Below, one piece after another: positions 18,987 to 55,637 of a DNA stretch of 64,000 bases (positions are counted from its first letter, which is position 1; every line of letters begins with the position of its first letter). Origin of the DNA: Cloeon dipterum. Taxonomy: Eukaryota; Arthropoda; Insecta; Ephemeroptera; Baetidae. The DNA lies in contig NC_088789.1 of the NCBI RefSeq assembly GCF_949628265.1, positions 17,042,886-17,106,885 of the forward strand, read 5' to 3'. The position numbers were made by a program, and so were the translations under genes. Under the pieces are notes generated by a model, which was given only the letters and a program-made list of their open reading frames with translations, had not been told where the DNA came from and did not search any database.

Positions 18987-21900
18987 TTAGCTTTTGGTGA
19001 CGGGCAAGGGCGTCTGCTTGAGCTGCAGAATGATGGAGCGCATGCGGGTCACATCCTTGGAGCCCTTGCTAGACTTGGGGTTGAAATCACACAGCTTGGC
19101 AATTCGCTCCCACTCAGTTCCAGGCTCGATTTCATCGGTTGAGGCGACAAACTGCTTCTCGGCATTCCTGAAAGTTGCGCTGACTTAAGACTTTGCTCTC
19201 CTGGCTTAATGAGTCGGAAAACACAAGCAGTGAGTGCAAATCTTCAAAGTTTTGCGTCTTCTAAATACCGACAATCTAAGTTACCTACATTACAACACAC
19301 ATAAAAAGAAAGCGGACGTTTACTTACACTGCTGACTCCCTGAGAGAGCATTTGAGTAATAGAATTATCGATTTGTTAATTTTTTAATCAAGTTCCATCA
19401 ACAAAAATTTGCATTGGTGCATTTTTAAATATTCTCTATCCCCAAACCTGAAGGACAAAACATTACTGAAGGTTGCAAGTAAAAAGTGGAGTTGGAGCAA
19501 CAAGAGTAGGGATTTACGTAAGCCTAGTTACGAAGTTTAATGCGAGTTCTTGAGCTTTAATGGATTATTTCGTCCAGCATGTTTACATGAAGTGTGATTG
19601 CAATTCTAGACAAATAGAGAGGATGTATATTCTCCCTTCAAAATGGTAATAATTGTTGCTACAAGATAATACAAGTAAAGATTTAAAACTCTGATGATTG
19701 GGATAGATGACTTGGCTATGCAATTTCTAGCGATCGTTTCCAACGCCATTAAAAATATCATAAAAAGTGTTTCTAATTTTGCACCTTAAATGTCCTTCAA
19801 GGATTAATTTTTGTGTTAAAATAAAAGAAATTGTTTCTAAAAAAATGCATAAAAGCGAAAGCGAAGTTGTTTAAGGTAATGCAAATAGTGGCATAATGTA
19901 GGTAATACGTGTAAACACATTTTATTCCGACCCAAAGACCTTATCCATTCCTTATTATATAATCCAGTTATCAACTGTTCTGATTGTCATTGATTGATTT
20001 AAATGACTGCGGTTTAATAATTATTTTTGGTGAAATCTTGATTTCCTTCCCAAGCAGTCGGTTTATTTTCGATGTAATGAAAGATTTAGACGTAGAAAAC
20101 AAAGTATTTTCTGACCTATAATGATTTTTCATCCTCTAAATAAGTCATGAGCTTGAAAGAAGTAATTATGAAACTCATAATACGAAAATAATTGAATTTT
20201 TCGACGTTTGAGTTTTCGGAGGCTTATCAGGCCTAACTATTGAATTTGTGAAATATCCAACAAGTTCAGAGGTATCACCAGGGGAAAATCTTTGTTTTGA
20301 AGGAGTTTGCGAGTTATGAAGCTTTAAAGGAATTTATCAAGTGAAATCATTGAAATTCGAATTGTTAAGTAAGTTTTAGTTTAATCAAGGTGATATTGTG
20401 TAAGTAGACTCTTCTTGACAAGACAAAACGATCGGTGGATCACTTTTTACTTTTTGGAGAAGTCCCTTGATTTTAGACTTGTTTTGGGCTAATGGTGTGA
20501 GATCATTTAGCTCTATTTTTTGTCCATAAAAATCAAAAATATTTTTAATTCACTTTATTTTAATTTTATCATTTAACGTAATATTTAAGTAATAAATATG
20601 ACGCAATAAATAAGCCATGACTTATCATCGTCTTTAAGAATATTAATGTGAAGTAAGATATAAATTCCATCATTTTCTCAAAATCCAAAAAAATAGCTCA
20701 AATCGTCGAAACAAATAATTTACACCACCATAATACATCATGTCAGGAAGGGCTACATGGATTTAATTAGTTCACAAAAAACTAAAACGTCGAATCCTAA
20801 GAGTTTCCTTGTTAGAATGACCATTCAAACCAGGCCCTACTTAATTGGTTCCAAAATATCAATTAAAAAAGATAACTTAATGGTCATAATTAATCCCAAA
20901 CCTAATGATGCCATTTACAACTTTCAAGAGCCCTTTAGTTTGTCCTATTTTCTTTAAAATGTAAATCTCCCGCCCTAAAAAAAGAGAAAAAGAGGTTACC
21001 TGTTGGATGCCTTGGTTTTGGTCTTGGCTTCATTGTGATTTTTGTACCACTCGTCCAACTCCTCCTTGGCCTGCAGGCGCAGCTTTTCAATCGCCTCAGC
21101 CTCGGCCGCGTCTAATTATGACCAGTGTGAGTTCAAGGAGAGCGAAATATCGATGTCAAACTGCTCACCTTTTTCCTCGAGACGCTGCTTCTGCTCCTCG
21201 CGCCACTTGCGAATCTTCTCAGGTTCCTCTTTCATCACCTTGGGAGCAGAAGATACTGCTGGCTCTGAAATTCGAGCACCAAGTTCAAGGTTCATAATCT
21301 GCTGGGTGACCCTTTAGAAGATGTTAGTTATACCTTCATATGCATCGTTAGTATCATCATTTTGAGTCTGGAGCTCAGATTCTGAGAAAACAAAGCAAGT
21401 GTTTGTTACAAGTAAAGCAACGATTATTTATTTTGCTAGAGAAGCAGGTTATTTTGCAAGCAGCCAGGTGAAATGCACGTTCATTCTTTGGAAAAAGCCA
21501 CATTCTAATTGGAATGAGGGTGCAGGTGAGGATTTCTGCTTTTGGCGGAGTGGCAAGGACACAACGAACACCACAGTCGCTGTACTCACCAAAATAATCG
21601 AGTTCATTGGAGTTTTCAACAAACTCAAAGCTTTCCTCGTTTGGTGCAGTGTTTTCTTTGGGTGTCTCTACCTCCCATTCGTTTGTTCGAGGAAGGTCTG
21701 CATGCAAAATTATCAAAAGGCATTCCCAAGGTACCAAAAGAGACGAGAGAAAAAATTTAACTCTCATAACTAATTGTGTACTTAAATCAGATGATGCTTA
21801 AATTTATTTTGTGCCTTCTATATACAATTGTACCTTAAATTTTACAGCTCTCAACTGACTCAACAAAACATGCGTTAAAATATTAAATTCATTCATCAAA

Positions 21901-22144
21901 AAAGAAGGAAAAGAGAAATAAAGAAATATAGCAACTGCATGAGTCTATAGTTTTATATAATACATGAAGAGTTTTTATCTAATAATAATTGTAACATACC
22001 TTCAATCACAGGGTCGGCTGCTGCAGCGATTGGCTCAATTTCATCTTCGAGTCCAGCCAACTGGCCCTGTTCTCTGGCCAGGAACTCAGCTGCGGGATCA
22101 ACCTCAGTTGATCCACCAAAATCGTCATCACCAAAAGCATCCAT
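18987..22144 (-). CDS. Clc: Clathrin light chain (6 exons)
   Basis: Binds clathrin heavy chain hubs and regulates triskelion assembly on coated vesicles in the cytosol. Exons from the 5' end: 22144-22000, 21697-21590, 21381-21334, 21264-21169, 21111-21000, 19167-18987, giving 229 residues, normal for the family. The N-terminus has the characteristic DPAAEFLAREQGQLAGLED block. The middle is an acidic linker, followed by the charged heavy-chain-binding helix (KIRKWREEQKQRLEE, then EKLRLQAKEELDEWY). The C-terminus is the conserved EWERIAKLCDFNPKSSK and TRMRSIILQLKQTPL. The first four introns are all phase 1, so exons 2, 3 and 4 (36, 16 and 32 codons) can each be skipped without a frameshift. Intron 5 is 1.8 kb. 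Confidence 0.95.
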
Positions 22145-22944
22145 GATAATCTGAATTTAATGTAAAAATCATCAATTAAATCAGAATGATAGCAGATTTT
22201 GATTAAATGAACTCTGTTCAGTCAGACTTTAATAAGCAATTTAAATTAAATTTAAGTGTTTTCTTAACATTTTCTTGTTTTACCCTTTGTTAACCTTTTA
22301 TGTTAATTGATTTATAACTACTATTAGAACAGTTTAGGTAATAATAACGGAACTGTTCAAAATGGAGCATGGGTGGTTTCATGATCATGTAGCACAAGAA
22401 GAAACAAGTTCGATTTTGACTAACAATAAAGTACCGCTTTTAGTTTCAAGTATCACTAAATCGATCATCTCCCTAGAAGATTTGTATAAAATATACTAGA
22501 GAGTTATCCACGTCAATTCCTTCATGTACATTTTAAACACAAAACTTAGTTCCTATTCATTTACTGAAGAAGAAACTTCGTTCAAAGAATAACAAATGAG
22601 TGGCAAACAACAAGTTATGTAGTGCATTTATTCCTCTTAACCCATTTATCCCAGCCATCTCCCGTTTTCATCTCTATTTTATCAGAGCAAATAAGAAGAC
22701 GGCTAGGATGACAGGTGAGGCAATGAGCAATTTAGGGTCCCTGGATTCTGAATTTTTTTACAACTTATCAGATTAAGGTTGGGTTTGGGGGCAGATCATG
22801 TTTGATTTGAAACTGACAAATTAGACTACAAGTAGTGAAATTTTGGAAAGGAGGAAATCGAAGCTTAAATATCAGATAAAGTTTGCATGAGAACATTGGT
22901 GTAGGGGTTGGCGAAATATCTTTAAAATAATAAAAAAATCATAC

Positions 22945-23134: not shown

Positions 23135-23606
23135 TTCACGGCATTATTTAAGAGTCTAGGACTCTTTAATCTGAATGTAGAAGAGACAGAGCAGTGATGA
23201 AAATGTGATTAGTTTAGTAATTAACTTTCTGATTAGTCTGGAGTATGGGTGTGGATATATTTCAGTTTTAAATGTAAAACAAGAATACACAACAAAATCG
23301 CATTGATTTTAGGGGCAGTTATATAGCGTTTTGTTTTAATAAGATGATTTTTGTTCATTTCACACTTCTTTAGGATTGTATCAGAGAAGTTTAAACGGGG
23401 AAATCATAACGACAGAAAGTTACATTTTATTTTAAATCACGTTTATTGTCTTTCGAATTTTTGTGATAACAAAAAATCTGAATTTAATTATTAATGAACA
23501 CAGTATCATCAAAATCTTTCGGAAAATTTGACAATGTACTTTCAAGGCCTGGAATGAATGTTTCCATATAATAAGTTGCTTAAATCCTCAAAGCGGCGCT
23601 GGACAC

Positions 23607-25092
23607 TCATATCGAAATTTTGTACTCAATCATGTAGCTAGGGAAAGCCTATAGAGGAGACATTAAAAATAAAGAAATGCCTTCAGTTGTTCACATTACC
23701 TGGTAATTGTTGTAAATCACATACTCTGGGTATTTGAGGAAATTGGGGGCAGGGTAGCCGACAACGCTATGGCAGCCCTGAGGAGGGCGCAGAATTCCGT
23801 TCATTGGCGTGTAAGCTCTGAAATTTCTCCCCAAAGTGACCTTGCACACAAGCATCTTTCTTTTGCAGAGCGTGCAGTGGACACATCTGTGGAGTTTGCA
23901 GGCACCACTGCCCCCAGCCTCGAAGGTGTACTGGTTGCACTTAGAAGACACATCAGAAAAATAAATTCCTAAAAACATTATTATGGTCGGAAAATGTTCC
24001 AGAAATACAAAATTAATTTATTAATGGTGATTGGTGTGATGAGACCAAAGATAATGGGTTATTTTTTACGTTCCTAAAAAACAGCTACAATCGCACAATG
24101 GTTAGTTCTGGACTTGGTAAGTTTTTAATAATTGATCCTAGAGCAGAAAAACTTAATATAACCTGAAAACTGAAAAAATGCCAAATATTTTCATTTTCAG
24201 AAAATTTTATTGGAACAATTTTTATTTCTATAGCATGAATGTATGTTAGGCTCTGGAAAATATTTATGAAAATAATTTTTTTATTTTTGACAAAAATGAA
24301 ACTAAATGATCTAACAGTCAGCTCTAAAAGTTTGAAAATGATATATCAAAGAGTTAATGAGCAATTAGTAAATTTCTCTGCTAAAGTTAAAAAATTAGTT
24401 ACTTTTCCGGAACCCAATCGATCGATTTGTCTTATAAAGTACTGTCTACCCGTCAAGAATTTGCAAACTCCGTCAAAACTCATTGGATACTACAATATGA
24501 CATCAATAAAACTAATACATTGCTGATCATTATTCCTAAAATTTTTCTCTTGTTTGTTGGAGAGCAACTGATAAATATTTTGATCCTCATCTTTTGGCCA
24601 TAAAGAATTAATCATCAAATGGCCCACATGAAACCAGCTTTGATTCAAATTAATCCGAGCATCCATTTACCTTTGCCAAACATGCTTAGCTCATTGGAGT
24701 ACTTGACGTTGAACCCATTCCGAACAATGACGTCTGCATGACAGGTGCCATGGAAAAGTCTGATCTCCGGCACAAGTTGGCCTCTTGGAAAATCTCGAGC
24801 GACCTCGCTCCGCCTTGCAGTGTACTTTGACCACAGAAAAGAATTCTTCACCTGGTAAATCTGAACAAAATTATAAATCAATAAGCACTCTGCAATCACC
24901 AATTCTCTCATTTACCTTGACAATGTGGTACTTTGAAACTTTGACGCCATTGTGGATAGCGATGGAGTTGTGCATTTTATCGTAAATCCATTGATAGGCT
25001 TCATTGTTGTAGTCGATCTCATCCAGTCGAAAGCCACGCACCCAGGGCTGCGATGCCGCGTGTTGAACCACCCGCCTGTTGTGGTAATCCAT
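23607..25092 (-). CDS. Stand-alone tankyrase-like ADP-ribosyltransferase (PARP catalytic domain only, 4 exons)
   Basis: Predicted to transfer ADP-ribose from NAD+ to proteins. Exons from the 5' end: 25092-24916, 24860-24671, 23968-23700, 23648-23607, with phases 0, 1, 0 and 225 residues in all. The catalytic triad is complete: His96 in RLFHGT, Tyr125 in FGKGIYFSD and Glu204 in YPEYVIYNN, the H-Y-E form of chain-forming PARPs. Between them is C146-x2-H149-x4-C154-x2-C157, the zinc-binding CHCC insertion known from tankyrases, and the C-terminal strand AFPSYMIEY follows. No ankyrin repeats or SAM domain are encoded in the exons found. A splice acceptor lies 13 bases upstream of the chosen ATG, so more 5' exons, coding or not, are possible. 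Intron 2 is about 700 bp. Ancestry from a tankyrase duplication is inference. Confidence 0.85.

Positions 25093-25875: not shown

Positions 25876-25916
<41 letters not shown>
25876..25916. repeat. (TA)n microsatellite
   Basis: About 41 bases of uninterrupted TA repeat in the region upstream of the PARP-like gene. Confidence 0.95.
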
Positions 25917-30640: not shown

Positions 30641-30695
30641 TCGATGACGCGTGCTTTTTTCCCTTCTGGATTGAGTTAAATAAGAATAAGCCGCG

Positions 30696-33600
30696 ATGTC
30701 AACGACTAAAGATCATCCCGACGTGTCCCTGTGCGACCGCCTGATCGACTTTTTTGACCTGCTGCACATCTACTTCATACCGAGCATCGTGCTCGTTGGT
30801 GTGTTTTGCAACATGCTCAACCTGGTTGTCTTCAAGAGCACGTACCTGAGGAGGCGCAGCTCCAGTTACTACCTGGCAGCGCTGTCCCTGTCGGACGCCT
30901 GCTTCCTCGTCACCCTCGGCCTCATCTGGGTCGGTGACACCTTCGAGGTCGACACCTTCAACAAAAACGGCTGGTGCCAGAGTGTAGTTTACCTGAGCAC
31001 CACGTCCAGCTTCCTCAGCGTCTGGCTGACCGTCGGCTTCACCGCCGAGCGATTCGTTGCCGTCCGCTATCCGCTGCTGAAATCGCACATTTGCACCGTG
31101 GCCAAGGCGAAGGTAAAACTTTTATCTGGTGCGATGGACAAAAGATCAAAGCTATTTTTAGCTAGCGATAAAGTTTTCAAAGGGAAAACTTTGTGAATAA
31201 TTTTCCCGCGTACGTTTAATTAAAATGCTACGCATCAAAGGTTAATCAGCAGTTTATGGGAAAACTCAAGAGAAATTTACAGTGGCGGAGCATCTCGAAA
31301 AAGAAAGACTATAGAATTAGAGCAGGGATGTCATTTTCTTAGCTGAGATATCATCTTGAAAATTTCTCCGTCCAACCTACGTTTTGACCATAAACCACTT
31401 CTTAATTTACAAAAAAATCGCTCGCCTTAGGTCAAGAACCATAGTAGCGACCTTTTTCAAGTTATTCAATTTTTATTTTGTGATAGCCCCTTCCAGTATT
31501 TTCGGTTTGTGGCCAAAATGTAGCTCAAGAAAATCTGCACAAGTACACTAAGTTTCAGTAGCCGCGAACTAATATGGCACTCGCAAAAGTGCTCAAAGCG
31601 TAAGCTAATTTGAAATAAATTACTCTCCTGCAAAATTCAGCAGAATTTTTAATTTTTATCAAAGGGCCATAAAGTAATTTTTTATTGCGATAGTTAAGTG
31701 GCAATCTTCGTTTGAAGTTTTAAAACCGGCTCAATATGCCGCTTTGCCTTGCATATGTGACCCATAAATTGAAAATATGCCTAACGCGCGTTAATAAAAT
31801 CAAATTTTCCTTGTCCAATTTACTTGTATCATACTAAAGAGTAACCAAATTGGACCATATAAGGTCAATTCCTACCTTCAGGGTCCAACCCTGACGTGAC
31901 TGTAAGTAACAGAACACGAAAATTGTCCTAAATCATTGAGTTTGGTGTCATTACATTAGGTTTGGATCTTGTGTAGTTCAAATTTAGTTCCATAAATGTC
32001 AAAAGTTATCCTAGACTAAATATAGCGAAATTTTGGAAGACTTTTTAAATCGCTTTGTAGCTTATGTATTCATGGTTGATGGTTAGAACCCATCTATGAT
32101 GGTTTAATATCATCATTTTAACTTAAACCTCTCAAATCAAACAATGGAAACGCTCCTTTTCCCGTACTTCAAACTTTTAATTTCCATACATCATGGCAAT
32201 TAGGCGAATTGTGTTACTAAAAAAATTTACACGCCAAAAATTCGCCCTTTACCTCCCAACTTCACCTGTAACTGCCCCGTAGGGGTTGATTATAGGTATT
32301 TACAAAAAGAGAAGGGATTGAACAAACAAGGATTTTTTTATTCTGAATACAACCCACAGCGATTAAAAGGGCCAACACATCTATTTTATTTAAAATGGGT
32401 ACTCTCGATAATTGTCATCGAAAAATCTCGTTTCTCATTTACAGTGAAATTCACTTTTTTTGTACACCCTTTTCACAAAAGGAAAATAATTTTGAAAAGC
32501 ATTTTATGCATCCTTGCTCCATTTTAATTGTTTGGTTTTAACTACTGGAAAAACACCTCACAATATCAAAAGTAATTAGTTTATAAAACGTTGCCGTCCG
32601 GAACTGAAATAGGCCTCGAAATAAAAATTCAAATCATTTGATTCAGATGGTTGTTCTCGGCTTGGTTCTCGTCTCTTTGCTGCTCAACTCGTACGGAATA
32701 TTCACGGCCGGAGTGGTGCGCCGCAGCAACGGACTGGAGTCGTGCGACGTGAAGCCACACTTTCGGGACGTCTTGAAGGTGATCACGGTGGCCGACAGCG
32801 TGATGACTCTGATCATCCCGTCTGTGCTCATTGGTGTGATGAACACGGTCATTCTGCACTGTCTCATTAAATTCCGCAACCAGTTCAAACTTGGCGTTGT
32901 TGAGAATGACGAATCATCGCCCTCAAATAGTATTCCCATGGTACGTTGATTTTAAAGTGTACGTATTACAAAACAAAATTTTCTTTTAAATTGGAGGGTT
33001 TAATTAATAAGATTCAATTTCAAATGATTTCAGGCAAATCTGCAAGGGACTTCTCGTCCTCAAAATTTGACCTCTAACACCGCAGATAATTTGCGTCACA
33101 CGTCAACCAATCTTTCTGGACCGCCAAAAGGTAGGTGGTTATCAAGTTTCTTTCTGGTGTCGTATATATCATAAAAATATATAATAAGCAAGGCAAGCGC
33201 ACGCGAAAATTAGATATTTGTTACCGTCAGCGTTAATATACGCATAATGCTAGGCTGATCGCGGATTTTAGGGGGCAGCCAGTCAGAGGCGTCCGCCAAT
33301 TTAAAGTCAGTATTGAGTAATGAGAACTACTTTAAACTTTAGGAAGCGAAATACTTCAAATATAATTTTGTAAGTTTTTGAAGAAAGCAGAATATAGAGC
33401 ATGAAAAATCTAATTTAAAAAATATCAATGATCGAGCGGTATCCAAATCTTAGAGTTTTTATATTATATAATATATAGTCTCTCTCAAGAAATTGTATTA
33501 ATCAAAAGTGGTCTAATCGCTGGTGTTCCTAGGCAACACGCGGGGCATATCAATGTGCCAACATGAAAACATGAATGTACATTTCTGACAGCTCATTAAG

Positions 33601-41978: not shown

Positions 41979-44900
41979 TTATTTTGATTGAAATTCCTTG
42001 TGGTTCGTTTCGTGATTCACAACCGGGGGGATGATTTCGTTTTTACTGTTCTCGTCTGAGGTCGGCGGTTCGAGGAAAACCCACTGCTCAAACGTGTTGA
42101 ACTGGTTGTCGGCCGTCTTGAGGTAGCTCGAGTGCGACATCATGATGTCGTCCAGCTCAGCGGCCGAAATCTGCATCACCTCCTTCTCCAGGTTGACCGG
42201 AGTGACGGTCACGTTGGTCGCCATCACCTGGACGTCAGTGTCGGATTCAAACTTTTCGTTGTCGTCGGCCTCCCCGTCGTGGTGGTTGTTGGTGAACGGC
42301 GCCTCGTCTGGCGGATCCCTCGACTGGACGACAAGGAGGCTGCCGCCGCTGGTGCCGTGTCTGATGGTGGTGGACGAGGGGAAGTCGATGGCGTTGTCGC
42401 CCATAGACAGCACCTGGATCTCGGTGACGTGCTGCACTGTGGGGGAGGCTGTGCTAACGAAGGTGACCGTCGGCGGAGGGGACGTGGGCGGGCTGGGTGG
42501 CGCGGCGGGCGCGTCGTCAGGCGTGATGTAGGTGATGCTGGCCGGACCGGACGACTCCTCATCCACGGCGATCACCGTCTTCAGCTCATGCTGCTTCTCG
42601 ATGCTAAGGGCCTCCTCCAGGGTGCCCCACTGCGACGACTTCTTCAGCCTGCGGTTGAACGTGTCCGACGCGCCCGCTAGCACGTCCGTCACCGTCAGCG
42701 GCTCCTTGCGCTGCAGCGGCGTGTTGGTCGGCGTCAACTCGTCATCGTCCTCCTCCTCGATGCTCGTGTCCGTCATGGCCGTCTCCGAGACGACCGGCGC
42801 CACCTGCTGCTTCCGCTCCACCTCGTTCACGTCCACCATGTCCAGCGACACGGCCCTCTCCAGGGGGATGCTCATCGGCTGGTCCGTGTCGAAGCGGGAC
42901 AGGTCACCCAGGGAGGCAGCCTTTCGCTCCCTCCCCTTGCCAGGACTGGCCACCTCCGGCTGCTGCTCCTCCTTGCCGGCCTGGTGGATGGTCACCTGCG
43001 ACGACCCCAGCTCGATGGTCACCGGCTTGTCCTGCTCCGCGTCCAGGACCTCCTCGGCCTTGGACATATTCTCCTCGAATTTCAGCTGCATGTCCGAGAA
43101 CGCAGTCGCCACTGGAGGTGGCGGAGCACGCCTCTTCTTCCTGTCGTTCTCCTCGATGGAAATCTGCTGCTCGGCATCCTCCGCCGCCATCGCCGGGATT
43201 TCTTTCAGACTCTTTCTGTGGCTGACGGCCGCCTGAGCCGCCAGCCTCATCTCCTCAGGCATTTCCGTCGGGATGTTGTGCTTCTCCTGCTCGACCTTGT
43301 GCTTCATTTCGTTGACAACCTGGATCATTTTGTCCGGCACGTCCACGGCCATCTCGTGCACAACTTCCTCCTCCTCCTCCTCCTCCTCCTCCTCCTCTAT
43401 TTTCTTGTTCTGCTCGTTTTGGCTCATCTCGGTGGCTGCCTTCGGCTCCAGTTTCTGACCCAATTCACTCGTCAGATTGAAGGGCAGAACCTTGACGCCG
43501 AACTTGGCCATTTTCTCTGCCGACGTCGGCGGCTTCTTCTCGGACCCAAGAGACGTCGTTGAAGTAGTTGGCTTTTTAGACCGTTCAGGCTTCTGCATGG
43601 ACACATTTGACTTGGTTGCTGGTGCCGCTTCCCTCTCCAGCTTTGCCGTTTCTTTGCGGTCCATGGTGCTCACAACGCTTGTTGTCGATGCTGGATTTTC
43701 AGACTTTTTCAATTTGGCCTGCCGGGCACCCATGCTTGACATCCTCATCTGAAAGTAAAATCGATAGGAATGGCATTACTCTCTTTTTTGTTTGTTTGGG
43801 GCTCAAATTGTCAACCGCAATTTAATTTCTGGTTTGTTAAAAGTTTAATGCCGCAGGAAAATAAAATGCGATAAAAGTGAAGCTATTTTTCTCTCTATAT
43901 AGCATATAGTACTTATTTTTAGCGCGCGTCCATGAAATTCTTGGTACTATAACATGGCAATATATATTTTAAACATTTTAATTAGCGTATGAGCAATTTG
44001 ACCCTTTGGAGGCCATCAGGGTGACCAGGTAACACCTAATATTATGCTTAAATCTTGTTTTTTTTTGTAATTTCTCTTTTGAAAGTATTTATGTTTGTGA
44101 CTTTGATTTATTTGATCCTTAAAAAGGACATATACATTTAAATTCCGTCAAACGCAAGATTTTCCAAATGAGTGCCGTTATATTTGAAAATCGTGTAAAT
44201 CTGGCTAAAATTCTATGCCAAAAATCAGCTCAGAATTAATCTAAAATCGTCTATTTTGGGACAAAAATCGTCTATTTTGGGACAAAAATCGTCTTAAATT
44301 TACTTTAAATAATATTATACCCGTTTCCTAAAAGCAATAATTTATAAAAAAATGTTTGTATACATTTTAAAATCTCATATTTGTACTTACTTTATTGAGG
44401 TCATCAATGGATTGGCTACGGTAGAACGGATGGCACAACCTGTCAGGAGGCCCAACCGACGGCGACCTTTTGCCGCTGCCAGATTCTCTGATCGTCCTCC
44501 CATGCGGCCGCTTTTCGATTTCAAGCTGAACGTCGTAGGGCGAGGCGTAACTGAGAATCGTAAGCGCGTCCTCGAACACCATGTGCCGCAGCGATATACT
44601 GATGCTAACGATTCTGTCCCCTGATGACACAACATTTTAATTACAGACGTAAAAATATAAATAAAAAAGGCCAACCTGCTGCAATTCGTCCTGACTCAGA
44701 GGCCGGGCCGCGGTGCAGAACGTCTCGAACGTAAATTCCCTCTCGCATGTTGCCGCAAATATTAAATCCCAGCCCGGTAAAATCGTGGCCCCTGAGAGGA
44801 ACGAAATCTCGCTCTGGCTCCTAAGTAAAGAGACGTTTTTCTCATAGTAAAAACAGCGTGAGATTGAAAAAGATTAAAACTTACTCCAACAAACGAGTCG

Positions 44901-55437: not shown

Positions 55438-55637
55438 NNNNNNNNNNNNNNNNNNNNNNNNNNNNNNNNNNNNNNNNNNNNNNNNNNNNNNNNNNNNNNN
55501 NNNNNNNNNNNNNNNNNNNNNNNNNNNNNNNNNNNNNNNNNNNNNNNNNNNNNNNNNNNNNNNNNNNNNNNNNNNNNNNNNNNNNNNNNNNNNNNNNNNN
55601 NNNNNNNNNNNNNNNNNNNNNNNNNNNNNNNNNNNNN
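55438..55637. other. Assembly gap of 200 N
   Basis: Exactly 200 unknown bases, a round number suggesting a placeholder, so the true distance may differ. No coding frame is interrupted as far as can be seen. Confidence 1.

Follow-up and report, generated by a model that had tools for sequence, protein, structure and literature searches.

In the analyzed DNA of Cloeon dipterum, we find a gene that in our reading encodes a functional, minimal ADP-ribosyltransferase (ART) of the tankyrase type, duplicated from the 3' catalytic exons of a tankyrase gene and belonging to a set of at least 27 short loci. We assign this reading a probability of roughly three in four. In the following, "the window" denotes the whole stretch of 64 kb that was analyzed, and all positions without a contig refer to it. 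The gene lies on the minus strand, where four coding exons within 25092-23607, separated by introns that are all of the type GT..AG, are spliced to a product of 225 amino acids, terminated by TGA. Its features are as follows:

24916..25092, minus strand: coding exon 1, residues 1-59; ATG at 25092; donor GTAAATGA
24671..24860, minus strand: coding exon 2, residues 60-122 and the first base of codon 123
23700..23968, minus strand: coding exon 3, remainder of codon 123 through residue 212; carries Y125, the zinc motif, and E204
23607..23648, minus strand: coding exon 4, residues 213-225; C-terminus KISI; stop TGA
24750..24752, minus strand: catalytic His96, HG motif
23961..23963, minus strand: catalytic Tyr125, GIYF motif
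23724..23726, minus strand: catalytic Glu204, PEYVIY
23865..23900, minus strand: zinc motif CKLHRCVHCTLC, C-x2-H-x4-C-x2-C, i.e., C146, H149, C154, C157
25093..25111, minus strand: predicted end of the 5' UTR, within exon 1 and 3' of the presumed acceptor AG 25113-25112
23426..23488, minus strand: candidate poly(A) signals AATAAA/ATTAAA 3' of the stop, found by pattern match only; first bases at 23488, 23447, and 23431, with a fourth at 23340

The protein matches the Pfam PARP domain (PF00644) with 66.1 bits against a curated cut-off of 26.7 (E 4.1e-18). Among solved structures, it is by far closest to catalytic domains of human tankyrase-2 (E about 4e-41, residues 29-223), and weaker structural relatives are PARP14 (1e-10), PARP15 (3e-7), PARP12 (1e-6), and PARP2 (5e-4). 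Identity of the ART domain amounts to 74/200 (37%) with the ART domain of the tankyrase from the same genome and to 73/194 (38%) with human TNKS2. Judged by similarity, zinc motif, and introns, the domain is of the tankyrase type, and by its appearance the locus looks like a real, compact tankyrase-type ART gene. This had been proposed in the original prediction, the exons of which are confirmed to the base. Spliced alignment of the protein to the window DNA recovered the same three introns, which is not independent evidence because the query was that same 225-aa protein.

Active site and constraint

The catalytic triad of the window protein is complete (H96-Y125-E204), and C146, H149, C154, and C157 form the CHCC zinc motif, both as originally predicted. 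To call the whole active site intact needs a caveat: a Cys replaces the Ser which we take to contact nicotinamide in PARPs. At this aligned position, the 27 short rows reveal Ser in 16, Ala in nine, and Cys in two cases. C5:5908k is one of the copies with Ser; those with Cys are the window gene and C4:13171k, its sister. Since a Cys or Ala here could weaken catalysis, full activity of the window protein is not to be taken for granted. From its sequence, the protein is predicted to be enzymatically active.

Across all 27 short rows, including those with frameshifts, H is kept in 26, Y in 27, and E in 24, giving a full triad in 24 of 27, and the zinc ligands are retained in 26 of the 27 copies. 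The triad is changed in three paralogs, C4:12107k (L023, L-Y-V), C1:8318k (L012, H-Y-V), and C4:18515k (L025, H-Y-K), where the last has lost its zinc site, too. These three are likely pseudoenzymes or decaying genes.

Over 197 codons, the window gene differs from its nearest paralog C4:13171k at 55 first, 46 second, and 108 third positions, a distribution that suggests purifying selection on the window gene. For the same pair, NG86 yields a dN of 0.31 and a saturated dS of 3.3. Eight of 11 chosen pairs show an NG86 ratio of 0.10-0.37; the other three, including the pair of window gene and tankyrase, have no computable dS.

It is unlikely, though worth considering, that the window protein is a catalytically dead pseudoenzyme which serves as a sensor of NAD+ or ADP-ribose or as a scaffold. 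Such a role would agree with the exchange of Ser for Cys at the presumed nicotinamide contact, common to the window gene and C4:13171k, and with the loss of triad residues in three of the 27 copies, whereas the window gene itself keeps the complete triad and each of the four zinc ligands, and its codon changes point to constraint. We prefer to read the window protein as an enzyme.

Origin and the family of short copies

We checked whether the genome also encodes a full-length tankyrase and found one, located at C1:22.93-22.94 Mb and thus on a different contig from the window gene. Compared with human TNKS2, its four ART pieces reach identities of 60, 80, 77, and 71%, and the aligned domain 82%. 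Ankyrin exons are located upstream, and SAM and the start of the ART domain share one open frame. Pfam assigned Ank to both ankyrin pieces submitted, and SAM and PARP to the joined SAM-ART piece.

Spliced alignment with human TNKS2 as query placed four introns in the ART region of this tankyrase (a slash marks the intron site): phase 0 at YNIIH/IQKV, phase 1 at FGA/G, phase 1 at TL/G, and phase 0 at GEQ/AYP. The window gene has three, in phase 0 at K/IYQV, phase 1 at FGK/G, and phase 0 at YQ/AFP, all of which match tankyrase introns in site and phase. Of the remaining 26 short loci, 22 were modeled with the K/I intron, 19 with the FGx/G intron, and 19 with the Q/A intron (20 with a second model), always at identical profile positions. 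The TL/G intron of the tankyrase occurs in none of these 26 loci and is absent from the window gene as well, which would fit either its loss from the short copies or its gain by tankyrase. The shared sites and phases argue for a duplication in which the 3' catalytic exons of tankyrase would have been copied as genomic DNA, with the break falling within the exon shared by SAM and ART. They support the earlier suggestion of a duplicate that lost its N-terminal part. A retrocopy origin of the window gene is rejected on account of its introns, which match those of tankyrase.

In a tree of 32 rows, the window gene pairs with C4:13171k (support 99/95), and then with C5:5908k (92/78) and C3:17958/17960k (94/94). 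With two tankyrases in the set and three long end branches, support at the basal fork of the tankyrase-like rows is 84/6, such that the point where tankyrase joins the short copies has no supported placement. Outgroups were three PARP places from outside the tankyrase-like set, all on C1 and on long branches, two of which are single open frames. A tree constrained to unite the C. dipterum tankyrase with the entire short set, to the exclusion of human TNKS2 and the outgroups, was worse by 6.1 log-likelihood units, and the AU test merely failed to reject it (p-AU 0.144).

Quite improbable, in our view, is an origin in which the window gene is left over from an ancestral zinc-bearing ART that had a single domain, was older than the ankyrins and SAM of tankyrase, and was comparable to NfTNKSL of Naegleria. 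A stand-alone tankyrase-like ART with zinc motif is indeed reported for Naegleria fowleri in the available part of PMC9688111, and our tree gives tankyrase no supported position relative to the short copies. On the other hand, introns shared down to the phase fit descent from a tankyrase gene, and the N-terminal start of the window protein, GFRLDEI..Y, resembles by eye the SAM-ART linker GTFLVDL..Y of the C. dipterum tankyrase. A very old shared ancestor would also give shared introns, and hence the intron argument is not decisive against a relic. Descent from the tankyrase gene is the origin that we favor.

As a candidate source, viruses were considered as well. A scan of viral contigs with an alignment of 12 sequences gave 86 pattern matches, among which 15 loci encode a relative at 25-32% identity. 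The pattern C-x2-H-x2..6-C-x2-C was found in none of the 15 viral frames through the match; as these frames also have, by eye, the look of phage PARP-type proteins, we see no support for a capture in either direction involving these viruses.

The genome (190.1 Mb, 10 contigs) was searched with five protein queries, namely the window protein, the human TNKS2 domain, and three paralogs. At least 27 short tankyrase-like loci were found, window gene included, with four on C1, fourteen on C3, seven on C4, and two on C5. No further short locus came from the paralog queries; the count is nevertheless a lower bound, because only the best candidates were scored. Other PARP-domain places, outside the tankyrase-like set, are located at C2:35.50, 35.89, and 4.10 Mb and at C1:33.24 Mb, some of them adjacent on C2.

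Ankyrin and SAM pieces compared with the fetched stretches around the short copies revealed no matches beyond a set of repeats in L028 and two weak ones of 23 residues. The former, ankyrin-like repeats at L028:7941-9095 (best E 1.8e-5), lie on the same strand about 2.7 kb beyond, i.e., 3' of, the C4:28766k copy, and the latter (E 0.6-0.75) lie 5' of the C4:28743k and C4:28766k copies (L026, L028). The outgroup locus L031 gave two weak matches in the same search.

Three near-identical copies, C4:28743k, 28750k, and 28766k (L026-L028), have a modeled domain without introns and could be a retro-derived branch. The dS values of 0.04 and 0.06 in the two pairs measured indicate recent duplication. 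Spliced models of four of the 26 other short copies contain a frameshift, so that the family appears to both gain and lose genes, and the short copies most likely constitute a birth-and-death gene family.

That the window gene is itself a pseudogene or non-functional duplicate, or an artefact of exon calling, is very improbable: the frameshifts in 4/26 other copies do show a family in decay, but the window gene is free of frameshifts and internal stops, its splice sites are canonical, and its changes against the sister C4:13171k are concentrated at third codon positions.

Gene boundaries and neighborhood

An in-frame TAG is located at 25104-25102, in the same exon as the ATG, four codons 5' of it and 3' of the nearest upstream acceptor. 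It bars the in-frame joining of upstream exons via the acceptor at 25113-25112, to which this argument is confined; judging from the sequence, an acceptor within the coding exon could be used instead. An acceptor-like TATTACAG ends 19 bases 5' of the ATG and thereby suggests a non-coding 5' exon. By tblastn (E<=1), the 64-kb window was matched by none of nine ankyrin pieces from the C. dipterum tankyrase and not by its SAM piece either, in line with the originally noted lack of ankyrin repeats and SAM. Given the TAG before the ATG and the lack of ankyrin or SAM matches in the window, the gene is almost certainly stand-alone. The idea that it forms the C-terminal end of a longer gene, with ankyrin and SAM exons farther upstream, is hardly credible, since the probable 5' exon implied by TATTACAG is separated from the ATG by the in-frame TAG, the ankyrin and SAM pieces are unmatched in the window, and a receptor frame on the opposite strand begins at 30690.

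This frame, of the rhodopsin family (PF00001), occupies 30690-31196 on the plus strand upstream of the PARP gene. The downstream neighbor, a clathrin light chain gene (PF01086) at 21116-22156, is on the minus strand like the PARP gene. A pure TA dinucleotide repeat of 20.5 copies lies upstream at 25876-25916. Farther away, window positions 42001-44000 reveal a GC content of 0.57 and an AT skew of -0.27, compared to ranges of 0.31-0.45 for GC and -0.06 to 0.07 for the skew in the remaining 2-kb bins, and contain no tandem repeat scoring >=80. A run of exactly 200 N at 55438-55637 represents an assembly gap or masked stretch.

Targeting and comparison with known systems

As a tankyrase-type enzyme, the window protein would bind NAD+ in the usual PARP pocket and attach ADP-ribose to proteins. 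Its targets would be picked by the surface of the domain, the short N-terminus, and location instead of ankyrin repeats. Lacking SAM, it would probably not form filaments like those of tankyrase, and mono- or short-chain ADP-ribosylation is expected. From the letters of the gene we infer its transcription, its enzymatic activity, the length of its chains, and its targets, and likewise a putative role in stress or immune ADP-ribosylation.

Location could be one way in which ART-only copies find their targets. CaaX-like tails occur in six of the 26 other short copies (C3:7544k, 7553k, 7558k, 7562k, and 20986k, and C1:24787k), with the sequences CQIM, CTIV, CTIV, CTIS, CTIS, and CSIM (loci L015, L016, L017, L022, L011), against a background of 47 CaaX-like ends among 5840 frame ends in the window and the fetched DNA. 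The six tails are not independent, because four of them stem from one C3 cluster. The tail of C3:20986k was read from a longer stretch, as the shorter one ended before its stop, and at least four models (C1:8318k, C3:7518k, C4:12107k, C4:18515k) have no trustworthy last exon and hence no readable tail. The tails suggest that these six copies are prenylated, membrane-bound ARTs. In C1:24787k (L011), the CaaX-like tail is accompanied by 19 hydrophobic residues near the N-terminus (mean Kyte-Doolittle 2.3), a candidate transmembrane stretch, and C1:8326k (L013) has a C-terminal hydrophobic stretch (Kyte-Doolittle 1.6), a candidate tail anchor. Neither a hydrophobic stretch nor a CaaX box was found in the window protein, which ends in KISI and whose best Kyte-Doolittle value, 0.77, lies inside the domain; it is predicted to be soluble.

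Taken further, and only tentatively, the lineage may have made at least 27 minimal, zinc-bearing ARTs from tankyrase catalytic exons, with soluble, CaaX-tailed, and transmembrane ends, in which location replaces target choice by ankyrins; if so, the antiviral PARP expansion of vertebrates would have a parallel that arose independently in invertebrates. With a single tankyrase next to 27 or more ART-only derivatives, the genome provides natural experiments on what the catalytic domain can do without ankyrins and SAM.

Tankyrases share a conserved ankyrin-SAM-ART architecture and usually number one or two genes per animal, according to the available parts of PMC2964712, PMC4245714, and PMC9688111. 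Clade 4, which comprises TNKS1 and TNKS2, is defined by ankyrins (15-18 repeats), SAM, and the PARP domain (PMC2964712, in part). Since neither ankyrins nor SAM were found with the window gene, it is not a tankyrase by architecture. It has in common with tankyrases the ART domain, H-Y-E, and C-x2-H-x4-C-x2-C, and with the C. dipterum tankyrase three intron sites and phases; one tankyrase intron is absent. While the tankyrases of C. dipterum and human are 82% identical in this domain, the window gene reaches 37% with the former.

NfTNKSL of Naegleria fowleri likewise is a single-domain tankyrase-like ART with zinc motif and no other domains. It belongs to an amoeba, however, and is read as a possible pre-tankyrase form; a multi-copy family is not described in the available part of the source (PMC9688111). 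Insect proteins with a PARP domain alone, sporadically with WWE, are reported from, e.g., Tribolium, but they fall into clade 3 with PARP7/11/12/13 and not with tankyrases, and the accessible portion of PMC4245714 leaves the zinc motif unmentioned. A stand-alone tankyrase expansion in an arthropod was not found in the open-licence literature, which is weak evidence of absence. In ticks, a "tankyrase-like" transcript is strongly lowered in infected hemocytes (PMC11789329, the available part of which does not state its architecture).

ZAP-L (PARP13) carries a CaaX box after its ART domain, as do six of the 26 other short copies, and its farnesylation is required for antiviral activity; it differs in its RNA-binding zinc fingers and inactive PARP domain (PMC8568172, in part). 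The window copy is without CaaX box. Repeated birth and loss of ART genes within one lineage is also known from vertebrate PARP14 and PARP15, which have macrodomains and belong to another PARP group, and for which the portion of PMC4038475 at hand ties PARPs to host-virus conflict. In the short copies, we see no sign of diversifying selection, the ratios of the measured pairs being <0.4 over the whole domain, and a role of the short family in defense may be drawn by analogy only. The family offers a test of whether ADP-ribosylation genes expanded for defense in invertebrates as they did in vertebrates.
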